Source: an uncultured bacterium (GTDB taxonomy: Bacteria; UBP6; UBA1177). From it: a stretch of DNA of 64,000 nucleotides. Shown piece after piece: positions 32,954 through 49,640 of this stretch (position 1 is its first letter; every line of letters begins with the position of its first letter). The position numbers were made by a program, and so were the translations under genes. Under the pieces are notes generated by a model. It was not told where the DNA came from and made no database searches. It was given only the letters and a program-made list of their open reading frames with translations. Location: assembly GCA_905233945.1 (NCBI GenBank), contig CAJOFY010000006.1:1-64000 (forward strand). Direction: 5' to 3'.

Positions 32954-34189
32954 ATGCTGAAACTGCTGGAAAAAATAAAGTCAAGGCTGCGCTTTGAAAA
33001 GAACGCTGAAAATGATGTGAAAGGGAAAAAGCGCGGTTTTGCCCTTGTTCTTGTCCTTGTCATGATTGCGGTGATGCTGCCGATAGTGAGCGATATGAAC
33101 TACGAGGCGAAAACAGAGTTCGACCTTGCTATGAACTACAAGCACAAGGCCGAGGCACAGGCTCTCGCTTCAAGCGCCGTCAATTTCGCTGTTGTCATTT
33201 TTGATCTCCAGAAGCAGGTGGAAAGCCTTCTGAAGCAGTTCAAACTCTCCAACCAGATAGAAATCTGGGATATTATTCCGATGGATACTGCGCTTCTGCG
33301 TACTTTTACCGATGCCGGCCCGTTTGTGGACCTCGAGGATGTCGTATCGAAAACCGAGGCCGACAAACCTGCCGGAGCTGCTTCAAACGATGAAGCCGGC
33401 GAAAACACATACACCGAAACGGGAGACCCGATATTCCAGTTCCCCGGCGATTTTAAGGTCGAATTCAAGAGCGAGGACACGAAAATCAACCTCAACCAGC
33501 TGGCTTACGGCACGAAAGGATCTGTTGTAAAGATGCTCGAAGCGCTGATTGAGCCTGAGTTCTACGACTTTATTTTCCTCGAAAACACTTCGAGACCAGA
33601 ACATGTCGACCGCGATGAGCTGATTCAGAATATCGTCGACTGGGTTGATATGGGTGACGACAAATACACTGACGGCGTGAAGTATCTGACCGGCGGTGAC
33701 GAGCAGTCGAACTACGACAATTTCGACCCTGAATACAAGGTCAAGAACGCCAAATTCGACACGCTTCAGGAACTCATGATGGTTTACGGCGTGGATGATC
33801 TGATTTTTAAGATTCTTGAGCCGCATGTCACAATATATTCGACCGGAAAAATCAACGTGAACAAGGCGAACCACGAGATGCTTGAAGGGGTGATAAGGGC
33901 TTATGCGGTCGATAAGGCGCTTACTGTTTTTTACAACGAGGATGCGATGCGCGAACTGCTGGGAAAAGTGCTTGCAAAAAGGGCGCAGTACGGTTTTTCA
34001 AAGCTCGACGATTTCATTCAGGCATGTGCCGACGAGGGTGTCAATCTCGACAAGTCTGTTTCCGAAATCGCCGACACGACCGGCAGCGTTTACCGCATCA
34101 AGGCTGTAGGAATCAAGGAAGGAATTGAAAGCTGGGTCGAGATGATTGTCGACCGTGAGGGTAACATTTATTATTACAGGGAAGGATAA
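32954..34189 (+). CDS. gspK: Type II secretion minor pseudopilin GspK
   Basis: KRGFALVLVLVMIAVMLPIVSDMNYEA; KINVNKANHEMLEGV HhH-like motif. Confidence 0.9.
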   Translation: MLKLLEKIKSRLRFEKNAENDVKGKKRGFALVLVLVMIAVMLPIVSDMNYEAKTEFDLAMNYKHKAEAQALASSAVNFAVVIFDLQKQVESLLKQFKLSNQIEIWDIIPMDTALLRTFTDAGPFVDLEDVVSKTEADKPAGAASNDEAGENTYTETGDPIFQFPGDFKVEFKSEDTKINLNQLAYGTKGSVVKMLEALIEPEFYDFIFLENTSRPEHVDRDELIQNIVDWVDMGDDKYTDGVKYLTGGDEQSNYDNFDPEYKVKNAKFDTLQELMMVYGVDDLIFKILEPHVTIYSTGKINVNKANHEMLEGVIRAYAVDKALTVFYNEDAMRELLGKVLAKRAQYGFSKLDDFIQACADEGVNLDKSVSEIADTTGSVYRIKAVGIKEGIESWVEMIVDREGNIYYYREG

Positions 34190-34220
34190 GTTTAATTAAA
34201 TCAATAACTTGGAGTAAAAA

Positions 34221-35699
34221 ATGAAATTTGCTTCGTGCAGAGCAGTCAGCTGCGGGTTTCTGATTGACACTTTTTCAAGGGAATACAACAAAACAGCCTT
34301 TGAAAAGAGTGAGTTTGCGGAAAAAAGTGCCGCGTCTGAGATTTTCAAGGGGGTCGACTACATAGATTTTGTATGTTCCGGCAAGGAAACGCTTTACTAC
34401 GCGAGGAACTATCCGCCGGTAAAACACGCATATCTGAGGAAGATCGTTGCTCAGGACATCGAGTCTGAAACCCCGTTCAAAGAAGACGAAATGCTGATCG
34501 AGGTCAAAAATTTCCAGAAGGGGGGCGGCGACATGAATGTTTTTGCCGTCAGAAAAGAGGAGATCCGCAGCGCACTGGCCGCTTTCGACGATTCGGCGAG
34601 GGAAAAAGTCCGCAGCATCGTTCCGGAGGAGGTTTTGTTTTTCAAGTCGGAAACTCCGCTGAAAAAGGCGATATTTGTGAATGACGACTATTCCGTGATG
34701 GTAATGCCGGACGGTCAGATTGTGCAGAACGGCGGTCTGAATGATCTCAGAAGCGACATGCTTGCCATTTTCGGCGGCGAAAACCCGCAGGAAGAGCTTG
34801 ATTCATGGCTCAGAGTTGCGGTCGATCTCAGCACTCCCGACGGCCTCAGCGACATAGAAGTGAGAATCCGCAAGACGATAATCTCGTTTTTTGAGAAAAC
34901 ATTTGCTTTTTTTGCCCCTTTTGCCGGCGAAATAGGCGAAACGGCGGTCTTTTTGGGAGGAGTTCTTCCCGAAGGCGCGGTGAAAATAATTGAGGAAACC
35001 GATTCATCGGTTTTTTCGGATTCGCAGTTTATCGTCTATGATTACGCAAAACAGCTTGAAATGGTTTCTGAAGCTGTTGACAACGACAGCGCGGTCAATT
35101 TCGCTGTCGGCGACTTCGCGTATAAAGGAGGCTTTGCATTCCTGAAAAAGAGGGCAATCATCGCCTTTCTTCTTTATCTGGCGGCAATTGTCATGCTGAT
35201 TGTAGGCATGGAAGCAAGGATTAAATATCTCGACGAAAGGATATCTGCGGGCGAAGCGCGGACAAAACAGCTTATGAAAGAGGTCATCGGCAAAGAAATG
35301 CCTTCTCTGCGGCAGGCTTTGTCAATAATGGACAAGTCAATAAAGGGCGAGGCCGGAATTGCCGATAAAAAGTCGGTTTATCCTTACAGTGCGCTCTATA
35401 TCATGGAAATCATCTTTCCGTATTTTACGTTTGAGAACAGCACGATCGAGGTTTCCGAAATTTCGATCAAGGAAGAAGGGAAAATCAGGGTCGTAGGCAC
35501 AAGCAATACTCTTGACGACATCAACAAATTCACCGATCTATTAGAGCAGGATCCGCTGATTGACGAAATCAACCGCGGCCAGATAAACACCAGGGGTGAC
35601 AAGAGTTCATTCAATATTTCCTTTAACTACGCGGGGCCGAAAAAAGAGGATCCGAAAGCGAAAAAAGGAAAGAAAAAAGGAAAGGAAAACAACGATTAG
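34221..35699 (+). CDS. gspL: Type II secretion protein GspL
   Basis: Position after gspK, cytoplasmic domain, single TM, periplasmic domain. Confidence 0.75.
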   Translation: MKFASCRAVSCGFLIDTFSREYNKTAFEKSEFAEKSAASEIFKGVDYIDFVCSGKETLYYARNYPPVKHAYLRKIVAQDIESETPFKEDEMLIEVKNFQKGGGDMNVFAVRKEEIRSALAAFDDSAREKVRSIVPEEVLFFKSETPLKKAIFVNDDYSVMVMPDGQIVQNGGLNDLRSDMLAIFGGENPQEELDSWLRVAVDLSTPDGLSDIEVRIRKTIISFFEKTFAFFAPFAGEIGETAVFLGGVLPEGAVKIIEETDSSVFSDSQFIVYDYAKQLEMVSEAVDNDSAVNFAVGDFAYKGGFAFLKKRAIIAFLLYLAAIVMLIVGMEARIKYLDERISAGEARTKQLMKEVIGKEMPSLRQALSIMDKSIKGEAGIADKKSVYPYSALYIMEIIFPYFTFENSTIEVSEISIKEEGKIRVVGTSNTLDDINKFTDLLEQDPLIDEINRGQINTRGDKSSFNISFNYAGPKKEDPKAKKGKKKGKENND

Positions 35700-35708
35700 G
35701 AGAGCGGG

Positions 35709-36254
35709 ATGAAAGAAAAACTGATAGAGGCGTTAAGTAATTTCAGCGAAAGGGAACGCGTGATTCTTGTCGGATTCCTCACTTTCGTGATGATTTTTAT
35801 CTTTGTCGCGGTCTGGTTTTTTATGAGTTCCGCGATTGACGACCGCAAGGACACGATTGTCGAGCAGGAAAAGATGATCCAGGAGATGGTTTCCAAGAAG
35901 GAACTTTTCAAAAAGGCACAGGCTAAGGCTTCCCAGATGCAGGACAGCATTGATTCAAGCAACGTGAACCTCAATTCCGACATTTCGGCTGTAAAGGAGA
36001 GCGTCGGTATTCCTATAAGTTCGATAAAGGAGATCAAACCGCGCAAAAAAGGTGACATCAATATCGAAAGAATCGAGCTCAATCTCCGTGAAGTGCCGCT
36101 TGACCAGACACTGACCTTCCTTTACGGTCTTGAAAACAAGGGGCGCTATGTTTTTGTCGATTCGATAACGATAAAAAAGCGTTTCAACAAGCAGAATTAC
36201 GATGTTTCCCTTGTTGTTGCGGCAATGAAGAAGGAGAACGCAAATGGAGAATAA
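35709..36254 (+). CDS. gspM: Type II secretion protein GspM
   Basis: N-terminal SERERVILVGFLTFVMIFIFVAVWFF TM and small periplasmic domain; position. Confidence 0.72.
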   Translation: MKEKLIEALSNFSERERVILVGFLTFVMIFIFVAVWFFMSSAIDDRKDTIVEQEKMIQEMVSKKELFKKAQAKASQMQDSIDSSNVNLNSDISAVKESVGIPISSIKEIKPRKKGDINIERIELNLREVPLDQTLTFLYGLENKGRYVFVDSITIKKRFNKQNYDVSLVVAAMKKENANGE

Positions 36255-37701: not shown

Positions 37702-38220
37702 ATGAAAAAATTGACGATGCTTTTGATTGTTTTTTCGATGTTTATGACGGTTGCATGCAGCCCAAAGATGATCAAGGGGACGAATATCGAGGAAACGCCT
37801 GATTCAAAGGAGATCCTGACGGTTTTCGGCTATTACATCAAAGGTTTTAAGGAGCAGAATCCGGAGATTTTTCTTGAATATATTTCGAAGGATTACTACG
37901 ACACGAACGGAACTGACGAAGCTGTCGATGACATCGATTACGACAAACTTATCGAAATTCTTAATTCCGATATGTATCACAGCCTTGAAAAGGTCAGCAT
38001 CACACCGATAATCAAGGATCTCTTCTTTAATGACGCTGAGGACAAGGCTGAGCTTATCTATTTCTATGAGGTGCGTTTCAAGATGAAAAGTTCGATTCCT
38101 ACGACGGAGGAAAACGCCTTTATACAGCCTGACGGCATGACAAACCAGAAGGTTTCCGACAACAACAAGATGAAATTCGTCAAGGAAGACGGAAAGTGGA
38201 AGATCGTGAGCGGTCTTTAG
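37702..38220 (+). CDS. Lipoprotein, hypothetical
   Basis: FMTVACSPK lipobox; RBS ggagg. Confidence 0.7.
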   Translation: MKKLTMLLIVFSMFMTVACSPKMIKGTNIEETPDSKEILTVFGYYIKGFKEQNPEIFLEYISKDYYDTNGTDEAVDDIDYDKLIEILNSDMYHSLEKVSITPIIKDLFFNDAEDKAELIYFYEVRFKMKSSIPTTEENAFIQPDGMTNQKVSDNNKMKFVKEDGKWKIVSGL

Positions 38221-39137
38221 ACAAAAACTCTATTTCTGAAAATTATTCCTAATATCAAAACGAGCGAAACCGAAGCGAACAACATCGGAAAAAAGCGTCC
38301 TCCCGGCAGATTCGTTCCTTTTTTCAATGAAACGGCCGATATTACAAGTGCCGTCCAGACAACGGAGAGGAGAATAAAATCGGCGATATTAAGCGGTTTG
38401 AACTTAAACGAAATAACGAAAAGTACGGCGAGTGCGGAAACAATTCCAACTGTCAAAGCTATTCCCAGAGGCTTGAGATCGCGTTTTACAAGTGTCTTTA
38501 TTTCAGGAAAGAAACATATCGAAAAAGCAATAATCACGGCTGTGAAATAAACGAGAGAAAGCAGAATGTGGTTTCTGAAAACCGTATTCAGCGGAAAGTA
38601 TGCTTTTGTACGCGGTGCGACCCCGAAGAACTGAAATCCGGCGAGGAACATACTGCCGTAAAAACCTACAATTATGTTGAGAACTGTCCTCAAGACGCTG
38701 CGTGAGACGACGTAGCTCAAAACGGCGAAAATAACGAGAAGTGCAAGCATTTCGAAAAAGAAAAAGCTGTCCTGTTCGCTGAATTTGTAGAGTGTGAGAA
38801 TGTCGAAAAGCGCTTTGGAAAAGTCGCCGCGTATATACTGCAGTTTAAGTTTTGAACCGGAAATCAATGCGTGGAGAAGCGGAATGAAAATCACCGGACT
38901 GAAAAGTGATAGATAGGGGATTTTTTCGGGTTTTAAGCCTAAAATATAGCGTGCGCAGAGTGCAAAATAAAAGAAGACGAAGGTAAACCACGCACTGTGG
39001 TGTGTTGCCACGAAATATGAGAAGTAAGGTATCTTTGCAAAAATTGCGGTTTCAAGAAAAACTCTTGAAAATATTACAAAAAATAAAAAAATAAAAAGTA
39101 AGATCTCTATGATTTTCCTGGTTTTTTCGTTTTTCAT
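38217..39137 (-). CDS. Multi-TM membrane protein, unknown
   Basis: About 8 hydrophobic segments; last gene of the VTC/DUF4956 operon. Confidence 0.7.
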   Translation of the reverse strand: MKNEKTRKIIEILLFIFLFFVIFSRVFLETAIFAKIPYFSYFVATHHSAWFTFVFFYFALCARYILGLKPEKIPYLSLFSPVIFIPLLHALISGSKLKLQYIRGDFSKALFDILTLYKFSEQDSFFFFEMLALLVIFAVLSYVVSRSVLRTVLNIIVGFYGSMFLAGFQFFGVAPRTKAYFPLNTVFRNHILLSLVYFTAVIIAFSICFFPEIKTLVKRDLKPLGIALTVGIVSALAVLFVISFKFKPLNIADFILLSVVWTALVISAVSLKKGTNLPGGRFFPMLFASVSLVLILGIIFRNRVFV

Positions 39138-39141
39138 CTTT

Positions 39142-39828
39142 TTAAAGCTCTACTGTTGTTTCCTGTAAAAGAAGCGAGACGTTGTTCATTGCCGGAATCT
39201 CTTTTTTAAGCTCGTTCACAAGCTCTTCCGAAGTCGATTTCGGCTTCATTTTGATGTGGTATGCGTATTCAAGCCTTTCGCCGACCGCGATTTCCTTTAA
39301 AGTTATAAGGGCGAAAACTCTGCAGTGCTTTTTGAGAATTTCAGCCATTTTCTGAATGTCAAGTTCATCGGTGCTGATGTTGAAGCGCAGGATTCCGTCG
39401 AAGTAGGAGACTTTGCTGAGCTGCGAGAGATAGAGGACGAAAGCTGCGATATTGAAAAGGAGAATACCGATAAAAGCCATGAAATATGCGCCGACTCCGC
39501 ATGCAATACCGCTTGAAAGCGCCGCGAACATGAAGACGATGTCGCGCGGATCCTTGAGGTTCGTTCTGAAACGGATGATGGAAAGCGCGCCCAGAGTTCC
39601 GATTCCGATTGCGACGCTGTCGCCGATTGCGTGAATAACCATTGAAGTGATTATCGAGCAGAGCATGATTGCCTGAACGAAGTTACGCGAGTAGGAAAGT
39701 CCGCGGAAAGTCTTGATGTAGGTGAGGCCGATTGAAACAGAGAGAATGAAAGCTAGGGCCGCCGAAAAAATCACGCTCAGCGAAGAAAGCGAGGATGAAG
39801 AGAGGTTGTTTGTCAGAAAATCACTCAT
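39142..39828 (-). CDS. DUF4956 membrane protein
   Basis: YSRNFVQAIMLCSIITSMVIHAIGDSVAIGIGTLGALSIIRFRTNLKDPRDIVFMFAALSSGIACG. Confidence 0.88.
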   Translation of the reverse strand: MSDFLTNNLSSSSLSSLSVIFSAALAFILSVSIGLTYIKTFRGLSYSRNFVQAIMLCSIITSMVIHAIGDSVAIGIGTLGALSIIRFRTNLKDPRDIVFMFAALSSGIACGVGAYFMAFIGILLFNIAAFVLYLSQLSKVSYFDGILRFNISTDELDIQKMAEILKKHCRVFALITLKEIAVGERLEYAYHIKMKPKSTSEELVNELKKEIPAMNNVSLLLQETTVEL

Positions 39829-40642
39829 ATATTTCTCCTTGGTCAAAAACGTTGAACCAGATATTGTCGGGATGGTTGTTTCTTAAAACACGCAGCATGC
39901 CGTATCTGAACTTCGAGAATGCGGCGCGTTTGAGGTCGAAAGTCTTTACAAGATCGACCATCCAGAGCGGAAGGTGTGAAACCTGCCCTTTAAGTTCGAG
40001 TATGCAGTGGGCATCGTGCCTGAAAATCGTGGTTGTATCGTAACTTTCCATTTTAGCCGGGTCAGGATGAACATTGAAAGTGTGTTCTTCGGCGCACTGG
40101 AGATTTGCATCGAAAGTGACGCGTGCATATTCGTCCGTTTCGCTTATCCACGCCATTCTGTCGTACTGCGTGATGATCTGCGGTTCGGCGTTGTATGAAA
40201 GGGCGAGCGACTGGAAAAAATCCATGTTCTGCGCGTCTGTTCCGGAAAAACCGAGTTCATCTGAGGCGCGCGGCGAATAGAAAAGTTTCTCGATTGCGTC
40301 AGATTTAACTTTTGCCCTGAATTTCTGCCTGTTCTCGCCCAGTTTGCACTTGATTTCCCAGAAATATGGCGGTTCCGGATTCTCGCCGTAAGAGCGGATT
40401 CTCATGTTGAAACGCCTTTCTTTCCTTTCCAGCCTGTTATTCAGAAAAGTGTGGAAAGGTGAGTCAAAGTAAAGGTTGTTTATACGGTAAAATCCGGTCG
40501 GCGACATTTCCGAATATTTGTCAAGAAAGCAGTAAGCCTTGACGAAGTCGGAAATCGGACCAATCATCGAGCGCGGAATGTGGTATTTAAACTCAAACCT
40601 CTGGAGAACTGAAGGAATTTCGGTTTGAGTGTGTGCAGCCAT
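39821..40642 (-). CDS. VTC-domain (polyphosphate polymerase-like) protein
   Basis: LQRFEFKYHIPRSMIGPISDFVK...YRINNLYFDSP...KERRFNMRIRSYGE...FWEIKCKLGENRQKFRAKV. Confidence 0.88.
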   Translation of the reverse strand: MAAHTQTEIPSVLQRFEFKYHIPRSMIGPISDFVKAYCFLDKYSEMSPTGFYRINNLYFDSPFHTFLNNRLERKERRFNMRIRSYGENPEPPYFWEIKCKLGENRQKFRAKVKSDAIEKLFYSPRASDELGFSGTDAQNMDFFQSLALSYNAEPQIITQYDRMAWISETDEYARVTFDANLQCAEEHTFNVHPDPAKMESYDTTTIFRHDAHCILELKGQVSHLPLWMVDLVKTFDLKRAAFSKFRYGMLRVLRNNHPDNIWFNVFDQGEIYE

Positions 40643-41880
40643 TATTCACTTTTCCCGCTGAGAAAGTTGCCCGTTGACTCGTCTTCGTAAATGCCGAGAA
40701 GGTATGCCAGATTTATGTATTTTTCGTAGATTTTGAGCTCCAGTTCAGCCAGTTTCAGATCTTTTTTTAGGATTTTCTCCTTCAGTTTTATGACCATCAT
40801 CGGGTTTACACCTTCAATTGAGGAATATTTCTGGAGAATCCCGCTTTTTTCGATGTTTTCCTTTCTTTCGGCAAGAGTTTTATACTGCCTTATCTCTCTT
40901 TTCAGCAACAGAAGGGCAGTGCGGACTTCGGTTTTTTTGAGGCGGTTTTCGGATTCGAAATCAGCATTGTCCTCGAAAGCTTTTATTCTCTTTTTTACAA
41001 GAGAGGCCTGGTTGTTTCTGAAACCGGGAATCGAGATTGCGAAACCTATCGAGAATCCGCGTGAAGGCCTGTCGTTACGGTTGTCTGTGTCATATTCGAG
41101 CGCGATGTATTTAAGCCAGTCACGGTCTTTTGCCTCTTCGAGGGCGATTTCGTTCTGCGCGACTATCGAACGCAGAGTCTGGTAGTCGCTCTCAGCTTTC
41201 GATGCGCCGTGGATTTCAGTCAGAGATTCAGCAAATTTCTCGATATCATCAACTGAAACGATTTTTTCTCTCTCGAAAACAAGGGTTTTGTCTTCTCCCA
41301 TATCGCTTTTAACAGCGGCTTCTATTGATTCTACCGCCGATTCCGCCTCAATCCTGCGCATCTCGATCTCGGTTATTTTGTCTTCTATGTCCATTTTGTC
41401 GATTTCGGTGGTTTCTCCGGTGATTTCACCCATTTTTTCTGTTACAGAGAGCTTGTCGTCAAGGAGTTCCCGCATCGAATTGATTATTTCAAGCTCTTTT
41501 TTGTGCATTATATAGGTGACAATCGCGCTGTATCTTTCAAAGAGGACATCGGAACGGGCCGATGTGTATTCGAGTTTGTGGAGATTCTGCATGTTTTTTA
41601 TAAATTCACGCGATGATTTTGTCTCGCCGAACCCTTTAAAATAGAGCCTGAGAGCGTATTTTTGCTCCATAATGTCGAAATTTCCTGTTTCGCTTCTGAA
41701 CTCAAGTCCTTTTATTCCCGGCGTGTCTGCTGAATTTTCAATTGAATCGGTCATTGCCTTTTTTGATGTCAGGCGAGGGTCGTTTTTCGCTGCTTCGATA
41801 TATTCTGCAATTGTCAGATCGTCGCAAAAAAGAATGAACGGAATGAAAAATATGAAAAAAATTGAGAAAAACTTTTTCAT
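40642..41880 (-). CDS. TolC-family outer membrane factor
   Basis: Signal peptide, long amphipathic helices, LTIAEYIEAAKNDPRL, SIGFAISIPGFRNNQASLVKKRIKAFE. Confidence 0.78.
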   Translation of the reverse strand: MKKFFSIFFIFFIPFILFCDDLTIAEYIEAAKNDPRLTSKKAMTDSIENSADTPGIKGLEFRSETGNFDIMEQKYALRLYFKGFGETKSSREFIKNMQNLHKLEYTSARSDVLFERYSAIVTYIMHKKELEIINSMRELLDDKLSVTEKMGEITGETTEIDKMDIEDKITEIEMRRIEAESAVESIEAAVKSDMGEDKTLVFEREKIVSVDDIEKFAESLTEIHGASKAESDYQTLRSIVAQNEIALEEAKDRDWLKYIALEYDTDNRNDRPSRGFSIGFAISIPGFRNNQASLVKKRIKAFEDNADFESENRLKKTEVRTALLLLKREIRQYKTLAERKENIEKSGILQKYSSIEGVNPMMVIKLKEKILKKDLKLAELELKIYEKYINLAYLLGIYEDESTGNFLSGKSE

Positions 41881-43910
41881 ATTCTGCCCAGATTCATGAA
41901 TTTTGAATTTTCCTGCTGACCGAGGTCAAAAAATATGAAGAAATTTCCGCTCTCGTCGATTGCGATTCCTTCCGGTTTCAGTTCCGGAAAGTCTTTGACG
42001 AGTCCGCTTTTCCCGTTTTCGGAGAGGTAGAGTCCGCCGCACTTTTCACTGTTGCACGAAGCGGTAAAGTAGAATTTATCAGAAGAGAGCATGTAAATAT
42101 CTGAAATTCTTCTTTCATGAGGCACATCGACAAATATCGTTTTTAACTGGTTTTCGGAGATCCTTTTCTCTGCAAAAACGGTTTCGTAGCCGTCTATCTC
42201 AAAAATAACGCCGTTTTCATGAAAAAGAGGATTTTTGAAAGCGATGAAAAGCGAATTTTCGAGGACGAACATTCCTTCAATGTCGATTGTTTTTTCAGCT
42301 ATTCCTTTTTTGAGGAACTTCGCCGCTTCCGAACCTGATTCGTCTGCGAAATTTTTGAGAATTTCATAAAAATCAACCGCTTTTTCAAGTTGTGCAGCAC
42401 CGTCTGAAAAAGTGATCCTCGCCAGGATCCTTCTTTCAGGTTTGAGTTTTCCTTTTTTGGAATAACTGAGAGAAGACATAACGAGATAAGAGTTTTCACT
42501 TTCTTTTGCTATTGATTCCAAATCATTGATTTTGTTGAAATTATTTATCTCGATTTTTGTTGTTCCGCCGTCTTTATTGACCTCGAAAAGAAGCGGTGTT
42601 TTCTTTTCCGTTTCATCTGAAACGACAAGAAATTTCCCCGTTTCCGTAACAAAAACAGCGCCTGAAGCCTCGATTTTAACCTTGCCGTTCCACTGTATTG
42701 GCGTGGTGCCTGACAGAGGTTTGTTTTCCCCGTCGCCATTCCGTAGAGACGTTTCATGAAACGTCTCTACAACGGTTTGTTGCCGTGATTTATTCAGTTT
42801 TTTTTTATCCCTTTCCTTTGCGGAAAGTTTCGACTGTGTGATTGAAAACGCTTTTGCCAGATTGTCCCAGACATTGCTGCCGCAGGTTATCGAGACTTTT
42901 TCGCCGAGGATGAATCCGTTGTTTTCGGGGATTTTGACAACAATTTCTCTTCCCCAGAGAGCGATGTTCGGGTTTTTTAAAAGCCTTGCCGGAAGCGGGA
43001 TTATTCTGCCGCCGAGTCCTGTTACAACGCCGGTTATCTGCTGAGGAGACTGAGAATTCGATATTGTAAGCTCGTCACCGATTTCTATAACCGAGAACTG
43101 TGATTCGGGAATGTAACCTTTTACTAACGACGGTTCTTTGTTGACAATTGAAAGAATAGGACTGTATGCCGCGATTTTCTCGCCGCCTTTGAAGAAAACC
43201 TTTTCGCCGTTTCCGTTTTTGATAAAAACGCTGCCGACGATTCCTTCAAAAGGTGCGTAGATAGCCATGTTCGAGTTCTGTTCTTCAAGTGAAGCAAGTT
43301 CGGCTCTCAGTTTTTCCGCCTGGGCTTCTTCAGGATTTTCGCCGCTTTCGAGCATTTTGGTGTACATGCGGTTGATTTCGGCGAATTCTTTTCTGCGGTC
43401 AACTATGGCTGATTCAAGCGACTCGATCTGGATTTCTATCGGATTTTTGACTGAATCGGAGATTTTCACGCTTTTCAGCCCGCCGGAAAGTTCTTTGTTG
43501 ATTTTGAGCTGGTTTTCAAGAGTCTGTATCTGCGCCCTGAGTTCGCTTATTACTGCGCGTTCAGCCGCTTTGTTCTGCAGGATTTTCGATTTGATTTCCT
43601 TTTCGCTCAGTCCGCGTTTCGTCTCGATCTGAAGCAGCTGGCTGCGGATTTCGGCGATGCGGATGGAAAGTTCCTGACTTTCAAGTTCGGCGAGTTTCTG
43701 TCCTTTGTAGACAGTGTCGCCTTCCATTACCAGAATTTTTTTGATACTGACCGGAGTCTCTGAATTTATTATGGTTTCATTCGATTCCGCGAACCCTTGG
43801 AAAGTTGTTGTTTCGCCGCCTGAATAAAGGATTATGCCGATAACCGTTGCTATCAAAAGAGTAATGAATGTGAAAAGCAGGCCTAAACCGCGGATTTTGT
43901 CGTTATACAA
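41877..43910 (-). CDS. HlyD-like periplasmic adaptor fused to a C-terminal propeller/SdiA-regulated-like region
   Basis: TTG start with GAGGTG RBS; N-terminal TM, PVSIKKILVMEGDTVYKGQKLAELESQELSIRIAEIRSQL; C-terminal IDIEGMFVLENSLFIAFKNPL...PEGIAIDESGNFFIFFD. Confidence 0.78.
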   Translation of the reverse strand: MYNDKIRGLGLLFTFITLLIATVIGIILYSGGETTTFQGFAESNETIINSETPVSIKKILVMEGDTVYKGQKLAELESQELSIRIAEIRSQLLQIETKRGLSEKEIKSKILQNKAAERAVISELRAQIQTLENQLKINKELSGGLKSVKISDSVKNPIEIQIESLESAIVDRRKEFAEINRMYTKMLESGENPEEAQAEKLRAELASLEEQNSNMAIYAPFEGIVGSVFIKNGNGEKVFFKGGEKIAAYSPILSIVNKEPSLVKGYIPESQFSVIEIGDELTISNSQSPQQITGVVTGLGGRIIPLPARLLKNPNIALWGREIVVKIPENNGFILGEKVSITCGSNVWDNLAKAFSITQSKLSAKERDKKKLNKSRQQTVVETFHETSLRNGDGENKPLSGTTPIQWNGKVKIEASGAVFVTETGKFLVVSDETEKKTPLLFEVNKDGGTTKIEINNFNKINDLESIAKESENSYLVMSSLSYSKKGKLKPERRILARITFSDGAAQLEKAVDFYEILKNFADESGSEAAKFLKKGIAEKTIDIEGMFVLENSLFIAFKNPLFHENGVIFEIDGYETVFAEKRISENQLKTIFVDVPHERRISDIYMLSSDKFYFTASCNSEKCGGLYLSENGKSGLVKDFPELKPEGIAIDESGNFFIFFDLGQQENSKFMNLGRI
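42743..42770. repeat. 28-bp perfect palindrome inside the HlyD-like CDS
   Basis: GTAGAGACGTTTCATGAAACGTCTCTAC. Confidence 0.97.
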
Positions 43911-46265: not shown

Positions 46266-49200
46266 ATGAAGATGAAGATGAAGAAAGTCATGTTTTTGAT
46301 TTCAGTGTTTTTTATGGTTTTTCTTTTTGTTTCGACTGATTTTGCCGAACCGGTTTCGGGAGACAATTTTACCAAAGAGAAAAATGAAATGATGGTGGAA
46401 TCATTGAAAATAGCGGCGGAAGGCGGCAATGTCGAATCTCAAATGAACCTGGGAGAGATATATTATTACGGCTTGGGTGTGAAAGCTGATCCGAATGAAG
46501 CCGCAAAATGGTACCTTAAAGCAGCAGAACAGGGTGACGTGAAATCTCAGAGTATGCTGGCATCCATGTATATGGCCGGATTCGGCGTAAAACAGGACAC
46601 GGGTACGGGCTTGAAATGGCTGAAAAAAGCGGCTGAACAGGGTGATGAGATCTCTCAGTTCGGGCTTGGAATAATGCATCTGCTCGGTTCAGATGATCCA
46701 AAAATGCCGCAGGATGACAAGGAAGCTGCAAAATGGTTCAAAAAGGCGGCAGAAAAAGATTTTTACCCTGCTATGGTCAAGCTGGCTGAAATGTATTCTG
46801 CCGGTGTCGGAGTTGATAAGGACGAAAAAGAGGCTGCAAAATGGCGTGAGAAGGCCAAAAAAGTAGAAGGAAACTATACGGAAAGTCAGCGGGCTTTGGC
46901 AAAAGGGGATATGTCAGGAGCTTTTAAAGGCTGGATAAAAGAAACCGAAGCAGGTGATGTCGCAGCTAATTCAAATTTGAATATGTTGAAGAAAATGGGA
47001 CATTGGGACGGAAAATCCAAAGACCAGGAATTCGCCGTAACAGGTAAAATGGATCCGGAAGAAATGAGGGCGGCACTCAAGTATGTGTCGGAAGGAAAAT
47101 ATGATGAGGCGTTGAAATTATACGGAAAAGCGGCTGCTAAAGGCGATACTATCGCTAAAGAAAATGTCGAGTGGCTTAAATGGAAATCGAAAACATTGGA
47201 CGAGGTGCTGGAAGCTGCTGAAAACGGTGATGCCGGAGCGCAGTTCGATGCCGGTATGAGATATTGGGAGAAAGAAGATTCCAAAGAAGCTATGAAATGG
47301 TTCTTAAAATCGATGAAACAGGGATTTCTGCTTGCACGGGGTATCCTTAGATTTATGGCGGACGGAATAGTAAATCTGGACAAAATAGTAAAGATTTCCG
47401 GTTATGAATCAAATGCAGAAATTGCGAGAGATCCTTACGGAAATCCGCTGAATAAAGTTTCCGATAGAGAAGAAGTGAAGTCGGAAGATAAGAAAAAGCT
47501 GCTGGAAGCTGCTGAAAACGGGGATGCTGACGCTCAGTCAAAATTGGGAATCATATATTTTCATGATGAAAACAATCCTGAGGAAGCGATAAGGTGGTAT
47601 CTGAAAGCTGCAGAACAGGGAAATGTCACGGCGCAGGTAAATCTGGCAGCATCATATTTTGAAGGCTGGGGTGTAGAGAGAGACCTCAGGGAAGCCTTTA
47701 AATGGTATCTGAAAGCAGCCGAGCAGGGGAATGATATAGCCGAGGATCGCGTCGGATCAATGTATGCTTTAGGAGCTATCGGCGATCCCGATTATGAAGA
47801 AGCAAAAAAGTGGCTCGAAAAGGCGGCAGCAAAAGGATTCGCACATTCCCAGTATCTTCTCGGCAGAATGTATATTAGAGGCGACGGGGTCGAGCGTGAT
47901 GTCAAAAAAGGAATGGTGCTGGTTCGTGAAGCTGTTGAGAAAGGAGAAATTGAGGCTTCAAGATATTTATTAGATTCAGTAAGTTTTTCGGCTGATGCAA
48001 AACTGAAGTCTGAATTGTTTCTGCTTATGGCAAAAGCAGGTTTTTCTGAAGCGCAGTATGCTGTCGGTTATATGTATTACAAAGGCGAGGGGGTAGAAAA
48101 GAATTTCGATGAGGCAATGAAATGGTTTTATGCCGCATCGTATGCCGGTCATGAACAGTCTGTAAAGATAATTAACGAATTTCTTGCGTCGGAAGAAGAT
48201 GGTGATACAAAAGCTCTGAATGATCTTGTAAAAAATCCTTTTAATGCATTGTCTGAAGAAGAATTGCGGCTGAAATTCGAGAAATTTAAGAAGGATGCTT
48301 TGTCGGGGAATGTTAAGGCTCAAACCGCATTGGGAACAGCCTATGCTCTCGGTAAAGGAACTGAAAGAAATTTGGAAGAAGCTGCAAAATGGTATAAAAA
48401 AGCTGCTGAAAACGGTGATGAAGCTGCCTCGGAGCTGTTAAGTAGATTGGAGGAACAACAGAGGAAAGACACGGAAAGCAATGCCGGAGAGCCTCTGAAA
48501 TCAACAGAAAAGAAAAGCAAAAACCCTAAGAAATTTCTGATTGTTTTAATAGCTTTGATAGCTTTGATAGCTCTGGTTGTTGTAAGTAGAAATTCGAAAA
48601 TTAAAGCCAAAACGCAATACAGTATCGGCGAAAATTATGAAAAAGAACATAATTTTGAAGAAGCATTAAATTGCTATAAAAAAGCGGCGGAGCTGGGTTT
48701 GCCCGAGGCGCAGCATAAACTGGGCTCTATTTATTACTCAGCAAAAAGTTTCGAAGAAGCCTTCGAATGGTATAAGAAAGCTGCTGAACATGACAATGCC
48801 GAAGCACAGGCCGGTTTGGGACTCATGTATTACAACGGCGAAGGTGTAGAAAAGAACATTGAAGAAGCGCTCAAATGGCTGAAAAAAGCGGCTGAAAACG
48901 GAGTGGTTGAAGCGCAGAGCAGTTTGGGTGATATTTATTTCAACGAAGAAGACGGCATGCAGGACTATAAAGAAGCGTTCAACTGGTTCTATAGTGCCGC
49001 ACAGAAGAATGACGCACATGCCCAGTACTGTCTCGCAGGCATGTACTACAACGGAACTTTTGTGGATAAAAACTACAACGATGCTTTCAAATGGTTTCTC
49101 AGAGCGGCGGAACGTGATAATGCGGCTGCCCAGTTTGAATTGGGAAGAATGTTTGAAAACGGCGAAGGTGTCGAGCAAAACTGGGGCGGAGCCTTGAAAT

Positions 49201-49640
49201 GGTATAGAATGGCAGCAAAGAACGGAGAAGAAAGAGCTGCTGAAAAATTAAAGGAACTTGGCGAAGCTGCTGCAGCGCATGACGAAGGGATTCGTACCGT
49301 GGAATACAGCGGCAGCGAACAGGTTCCGTCAGCTCAGGAAGTATTGAAAACGCTGGTAGAAGCTGCTGAAAACGGAGACGAATTTGCTAAAGAAATTCTG
49401 AAATCCATAGAAAAGAAAGGTTTCTTTGAATCTAATGATGATGAGGAGCTGTATGAAGATGCGGAGGAGCCTGATTCCGAGACTGAACCTGAAGATGCAG
49501 TGACGGATGAAGCCGTGGCAAAAGAGAGTGAAATTGTGCAGGAAGCCGATGAAACGGAAAAACGCGGTTCGCTTTCTGATGCAGTGCATAAAGTCACGAC
49601 GGAGCACTCGGAAGAGCAAAAAACCGCAAAGAAGCCCTGA
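46266..49640 (+). CDS. Sel1-repeat protein with signal peptide and internal TM helix
   Basis: Many A..G...AQ..LG.(M/I)Y..G.GV.....EA.KW..KAAE units; TM FLIVLIALIALIALVVVS. Confidence 0.92.
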   Translation: MKMKMKKVMFLISVFFMVFLFVSTDFAEPVSGDNFTKEKNEMMVESLKIAAEGGNVESQMNLGEIYYYGLGVKADPNEAAKWYLKAAEQGDVKSQSMLASMYMAGFGVKQDTGTGLKWLKKAAEQGDEISQFGLGIMHLLGSDDPKMPQDDKEAAKWFKKAAEKDFYPAMVKLAEMYSAGVGVDKDEKEAAKWREKAKKVEGNYTESQRALAKGDMSGAFKGWIKETEAGDVAANSNLNMLKKMGHWDGKSKDQEFAVTGKMDPEEMRAALKYVSEGKYDEALKLYGKAAAKGDTIAKENVEWLKWKSKTLDEVLEAAENGDAGAQFDAGMRYWEKEDSKEAMKWFLKSMKQGFLLARGILRFMADGIVNLDKIVKISGYESNAEIARDPYGNPLNKVSDREEVKSEDKKKLLEAAENGDADAQSKLGIIYFHDENNPEEAIRWYLKAAEQGNVTAQVNLAASYFEGWGVERDLREAFKWYLKAAEQGNDIAEDRVGSMYALGAIGDPDYEEAKKWLEKAAAKGFAHSQYLLGRMYIRGDGVERDVKKGMVLVREAVEKGEIEASRYLLDSVSFSADAKLKSELFLLMAKAGFSEAQYAVGYMYYKGEGVEKNFDEAMKWFYAASYAGHEQSVKIINEFLASEEDGDTKALNDLVKNPFNALSEEELRLKFEKFKKDALSGNVKAQTALGTAYALGKGTERNLEEAAKWYKKAAENGDEAASELLSRLEEQQRKDTESNAGEPLKSTEKKSKNPKKFLIVLIALIALIALVVVSRNSKIKAKTQYSIGENYEKEHNFEEALNCYKKAAELGLPEAQHKLGSIYYSAKSFEEAFEWYKKAAEHDNAEAQAGLGLMYYNGEGVEKNIEEALKWLKKAAENGVVEAQSSLGDIYFNEEDGMQDYKEAFNWFYSAAQKNDAHAQYCLAGMYYNGTFVDKNYNDAFKWFLRAAERDNAAAQFELGRMFENGEGVEQNWGGALKWYRMAAKNGEERAAEKLKELGEAAAAHDEGIRTVEYSGSEQVPSAQEVLKTLVEAAENGDEFAKEILKSIEKKGFFESNDDEELYEDAEEPDSETEPEDAVTDEAVAKESEIVQEADETEKRGSLSDAVHKVTTEHSEEQKTAKKP

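Follow-up and report, generated by a model that had tools for sequence, protein, structure and literature searches.

A pump-less HlyD–OEP–VTC–DUF4956 gene cassette as a candidate bacterial system for polyphosphate synthesis and export

In the window, the whole stretch of 64,000 nucleotides that was analysed, five minus-strand open reading frames follow each other with overlaps of 1–8 nt or a gap of 4 nt. They lie exactly where a sequence-only reading of this DNA had placed them, and four of them match the families named there above the Pfam cut-off. The first gene (41877..43910, minus strand) encodes a 677-aa fusion of a HlyD-type adaptor with a propeller-like domain, assigned from its AlphaFold model and from HlyD_D23 (33.4 bits, cut-off 30) and HlyD_3, both above cut-off; its frame starts with TTG and orthologues start at an equivalent TTG, GTG or ATG. 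Its stop overlaps in the motif ATGA with the start of a gene for a TolC/OEP-type outer-membrane protein with signal peptide (40642..41880, minus strand), identified by the Pfam model OEP (26.3 bits, cut-off 22) and by synteny in the family. This frame shares 1 nt with that of a soluble 273-aa triphosphate-tunnel protein of the VTC polyphosphate-polymerase type (39821..40642, minus strand; Pfam VTC, 142.4 bits, cut-off 23), which is in turn overlapped by 8 nt by a DUF4956 gene (39142..39828, minus strand; 45.6 bits, cut-off 30.6) that also has an in-frame start upstream. The DUF4956 product is a membrane protein with five predicted helices and an ACT-like C-terminal domain. Only 4 nt further an orphan membrane protein with about nine transmembrane segments is encoded (38217..39137, minus strand), for which no match was found in Pfam, NCBIfam or the PDB. 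As had been claimed before, no ABC or RND pump is encoded in the operon, and Pfam recognised no MFS pump among the five genes either.

The host genus is represented by MAGs from rumen and gut. Of 15 genus genomes 13 proved to contain VTC, as did two sister genera; the two genus genomes without a match are 72% and 77% complete. Wherever contigs allow the comparison, all VTC-positive members of the family share the syntenic order HlyD–OEP–VTC–DUF4956, at protein identities of 25–97%, and given this synteny the operon arrangement is far from chance. Conservation of the neighbourhood in relatives, on which the sequence-only reading depended, was thus found for four genes, and together with the stop/start overlaps it bears out the proposed co-expressed unit. 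The fifth gene does not belong to this core: the orphan is a genus-only add-on, present in all 13 genus loci (70–91% identity across the 12 other genus loci) and not found at the same position in the sister-genus loci, so that the idea of a five-gene system holds for the four-gene core but not for the orphan. One sister-genus genome (G016) retains the fused adaptor and carries an LTD lipoprotein gene after DUF4956; another (G018) has an adaptor without the propeller and a CotH lipoprotein gene after DUF4956. The product of the gene directly upstream of the G016 cassette (L028, 4115-6058) resembles a lipoprotein and has a pyruvate phosphate dikinase ATP-binding domain.

The VTC protein allowed the closest comparison with a characterised enzyme. 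A VTC profile matches Vtc4 structures at 5e-28 and ranks those of Vtc4 (3g3q, 5iiq, 8i6v, 7ytj) above Vtc2/Vtc3. In an alignment of 34 VTC proteins 13 columns are invariant, and all 13 hold the same residue in yeast Vtc4. Among the mapped tunnel positions 16 are identical in the window's protein, including R15 (R196 in Vtc4), K19 (K200), R81 (R264), R83 (R266), K98 (K281), K107 (K294), R162 (R361), R174 (R373), E216 (E426), S243 (S457) and K244 (K458). All ATP/polyphosphate tunnel residues of Vtc4, the basic ones and the glutamate alike, are therefore conserved, and R264 and R266 are essential for polyphosphate synthesis in yeast (PMC8749416). Judged by these residues, polymer synthesis by VTC, as had been suggested, is well supported. 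PPK1 and PPK2 were undetected in the 13 genus genomes searched, and VTC is thus the sole recognised polyphosphate polymerase there. The triphosphate-tunnel superfamily is functionally diverse, and the window's protein consists of the VTC domain only, with neither an SPX domain nor a transmembrane domain; it could accordingly be a tunnel enzyme of other activity (triphosphatase, nucleotide or pyrophosphate chemistry) that makes no polymer. With all polymerase-tunnel residues kept, among them the equivalents of R264/R266, K458 and E426, and Vtc4 as best structural relative, we regard this as very unlikely. For no bacterial member was any biochemistry found.

The AlphaFold model of the adaptor shows a transmembrane helix (residues 9-27), a hairpin and barrel reaching to about residue 345, a disordered linker (346-400) and an all-beta domain (about 400-677). 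In a fold search the HlyD part matches EmrA/MacA. Only adaptor structures were among the fold matches listed, and the propeller fold of the C-terminal domain (41877..42713, minus strand) therefore rests on the model and on its homologues. Its Pfam matches all stay below the cut-off (DUF6929, SdiA-regulated with 19.0 bits against 21, DUF3616, and Phytase-like with 16.1 against 27.6). Homologous fused domains in other phyla nevertheless agree with the propeller-like domain recognised by the sequence-only reading. In the alignment of 11 rows about 14 charged residues are conserved across three phyla, being kept in kind in every row, including E414, D432, E433, D463, E465, K486, K488, R493, E545, K559, D604, K645, E647 and D662. 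A propeller-only profile detected the domain in 14 genus genomes and in G016 but in none of the 45 other genomes searched; all propeller-bearing genomes also have VTC except one (G010, 72% complete, no VTC found). With the SdiA-regulated, phytase-like, DUF6929 and DUF3616 propellers the domain shares weak sequence matches and conserved acidic motifs, but it lies below their curated cut-offs and is fused to HlyD. In three other loci a separate gene for an SdiA-regulated/phytase-like propeller adjoins those for a HlyD-like adaptor, VTC and DUF4956, with a sequence similarity to the fused domain that is too weak to prove homology.

To take the cassette beyond the family we sampled 393 genomes, in which VTC turned up in 34 distant ones. 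Within 6 kb of VTC, the 36 distant loci contain DUF4956 in 33 cases, CotH in 19 and a HlyD-like adaptor in 15, the other 21 having no such adaptor. The chance of 15 in 36 is about 4e-14 if HlyD is assumed to be that near in about 3% of places, a figure that is weakened by the relatedness of the genomes. In another phylum VTC was present in 48 of 83 genomes, and a third, small phylum was examined as well. Since a first HlyD profile, built with iteration, also picked up proteins that the Pfam HlyD models miss, two types of adaptor were kept apart: type A, found with a strict profile that drew on no sequences beyond the window's family and was not iterated, and type B, the divergent set. The two alignments are linked by hhalign (99.0% probability, E 2.6e-18). 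Type B adaptors precede VTC in L048-L055, L058, L091-L109 and L124; they are very divergent and several escape the Pfam HlyD models.

With the strict profile, type A adaptors adjoin VTC in 14 loci outside the window's family. Seven of these are HlyD–propeller fusions, found in two other phyla and mostly accompanied by DUF4956, and all six of the type A loci that were put through Pfam have an OEP. The usual gene order is DUF4956–HlyD(propeller)–OEP–VTC, followed in several loci by a secreted LTD protein. The HlyD–OEP–VTC cassette occurs in at least four phyla, namely the window's, those of G071 and G061, and at least one more, since G116 and G218 lie outside these three. The sequence-only reading had known of no system with this composition; the locus is not unique, since the same HlyD–OEP–VTC–DUF4956 set recurs across these phyla. 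A VTC tree of 79 rows unites those with type A adaptor and OEP in one clade (support 98/91) spanning at least four phyla. The only other members of this clade are L118, where an OEP-like gene stands at the contig edge, and L126, where the contig ends within the neighbourhood. Type B adaptors, which have no recognised OEP gene alongside, mostly form a separate group. The grouping of type A rows in one clade shows that polymerase and adaptor type have been inherited together. That VTC and DUF4956 do not segregate from the conduit is true within the family but not elsewhere, where VTC–DUF4956 is also found without HlyD/TolC and then mostly accompanied by CotH; the conduit is therefore better seen as a module that joined a separable core. 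In L058, L104, L120 and L127 the cassette has neighbouring genes for secreted proteins with a lamin tail domain (LTD), and some of these proteins carry type IX secretion tails. Two VTC frames contain internal stops (G292:C5:3770-4414 one TGA, G447:C219:3545-4198 two TAG), reflecting decay, sequencing error or a different code. A plasmid search for VTC gave three distant matches with no usable neighbourhood.

The adaptor has an EmrA/MacA-like fold, and in many bacteria OEPs are shared between pumps. The two proteins might thus be an ordinary efflux adaptor and channel borrowing a pump, of the RND or another kind, from elsewhere in the genome, with VTC as an incidental neighbour. A survey of RND pumps in the window's genome found two that are full-length, each with its own adjacent adaptor, and here too the sequence-only reading withstood, within the family, a check that it had named as able to refute it. 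Taken with the synteny and the co-clading with VTC across phyla, this survey of RND pumps makes borrowed efflux extremely unlikely.

The DUF4956 protein was modelled with a pLDDT of 79.7. Its C-terminal fold resembles the C-terminal domain of MgtC (PDB 7qa5), at weak fold-search E-values of which the best is 2.3e-3. R86 and R88 are the sole invariant positions in the alignment of 35 rows. If the C-terminal domain is cytosolic, both would lie at the end of helix 3 that faces the cytosol, in a position to meet a chain coming from VTC. It is already known that VTC–DUF4956(–CotH) is an accessory module of exopolysaccharide loci: the three genes accompany Gram-positive Pel loci (PMC7112168), and in Streptococcus intermedius deletions of DUF4956 and CotH altered Pel amount and aggregation, while no effect on either was reported for the VTC deletion (PMC12345266). 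The sole CotH detected in the window's genome is encoded on another contig within a Wzx/Wzy/Wzz polysaccharide operon that also encodes a DUF7033 protein (L083 258-8734, G000:C1).

These data, including the MgtC/ACT-like domain, would also fit a role of VTC–DUF4956 in making cytosolic polyphosphate or a phosphate signal by which a pathway of the envelope or of exopolysaccharide is regulated, with HlyD–OEP carrying another molecule such as a glycan, a peptide or a surface protein. However, the cassette contains neither glycan genes nor genes for protein export, its loci were not seen to share any, and across phyla VTC and the type A adaptor are found together in a single clade; we consider this reading unlikely. 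A second possibility is that an exported phosphate chain acts as phosphoryl donor for secreted CotH-type kinases and for LTD or other surface substrates, which have no ATP available outside the cell. The proximity of CotH to VTC in 19 of the 36 distant loci, its place after DUF4956 in a sister genus (g4) and the LTD proteins next to the cassette in L028, L058, L060, L104, L120 and L127 point in this direction. On the other hand, CotH enzymes are known to use ATP, none was found beside the cassette in the genus, and CotH was undetected in four VTC-positive genus genomes that are 93–99% complete (G001, G008, G012, G013). A donor function is decidedly unlikely for these reasons.

Our preferred reading is a pump-less, polymerase-coupled envelope system for polyphosphate or a similar phosphate chain, which we propose tentatively, with nearly as much reason to believe it as to doubt it. 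Cytosolic VTC would make polyphosphate from ATP like yeast Vtc4, as homology and the observed residues suggest, and DUF4956 might receive the chain and let it across the inner membrane, by analogy with the membrane channel of the yeast VTC complex. The HlyD adaptor and OEP, both present in the operon, may assemble into a periplasmic conduit dedicated to the VTC product, and each adaptor subunit would hold its propeller close to the inner membrane, where the domain could bind, trim or hand on the chain with its conserved acidic and basic residues. The polymer may then be exported or anchored, the driving force being supplied by its synthesis and not by a pump. Alg44, whose MFP-like domain is thought to link the alginate polymerase to the secretion path, offers a precedent for coupling such a domain to a polymerase (PMC3815931). 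The resemblance of DUF4956 to MgtC, a regulator and not a proven channel, has to be counted against this route, and so has the VTC deletion in Streptococcus intermedius, for which no effect on Pel or aggregation was reported (PMC12345266). Transport of polyphosphate is not known for channels of the TolC type, and as 21 of the 36 distant loci have no HlyD-like adaptor, export via TolC is not intrinsic to the VTC–DUF4956 core. The most specific version, a dedicated diderm machine for polyphosphate synthesis and export with a polymerase-driven, pump-less HlyD–TolC conduit and chain-handling periplasmic propellers in at least four phyla, we regard as possible and hold with considerable doubt.

Each part of the cassette has a known counterpart. 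With the eukaryotic VTC complex (Vtc4 with the Vtc1/2/3 membrane channel) it shares the catalytic tunnel domain with all key residues and a membrane partner as a possible carrier of the chain, but its VTC protein lacks SPX and fused transmembrane domains, its partner DUF4956 is another Pfam family and an outer-membrane conduit is added. The Pel module (PMC7112168; PMC12345266) likewise has adjacent VTC and DUF4956 genes, whereas the cassette has neither Pel genes nor adjacent CotH and adds HlyD adaptor, OEP and propeller. Tripartite pumps (EmrAB-TolC, MacAB-TolC, AcrAB-TolC) combine a HlyD-type adaptor with an OEP; in contrast, the cassette has no pump, bears a propeller on its adaptor and includes a gene for a polymerase. 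Alginate synthase Alg8-Alg44 also carries an MFP-like periplasmic domain on a polymer synthase without a pump, but there the product is a glycan, made by a GT2 polymerase with PilZ, none of which is present in the five cassette proteins. Neither a pump-less HlyD–TolC form with fused propeller nor a bacterial polyphosphate exporter with VTC was found described in our literature search, which left most subscription papers outside, and the novelty of the pump-less HlyD–TolC–VTC form is provisional.

For the gonococcal pseudo-capsule it has been considered that other gene products may act in outer-membrane translocation (PMC10237660). The cassette is a concrete and testable candidate route for placing polyphosphate on the bacterial surface and, if the proposal is true, would represent a tripartite conduit driven by polymerisation instead of a pump. 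It also gives three uncharacterised domains, DUF4956, bacterial VTC and the DUF6929-like propeller, a common context.

A role in anti-phage defence is unsupported, as a PADLOC search found nothing. Convergent to the cassette, type II secretion genes (GspK, a PilN-like GspL candidate and GspM) lie on the plus strand at 32954-36254 of the window, and such genes stand beside the cassette in several genus loci. The 1124-aa product of a plus-strand gene on its other side (46266-49640) contains 15 or more Sel1 repeats.
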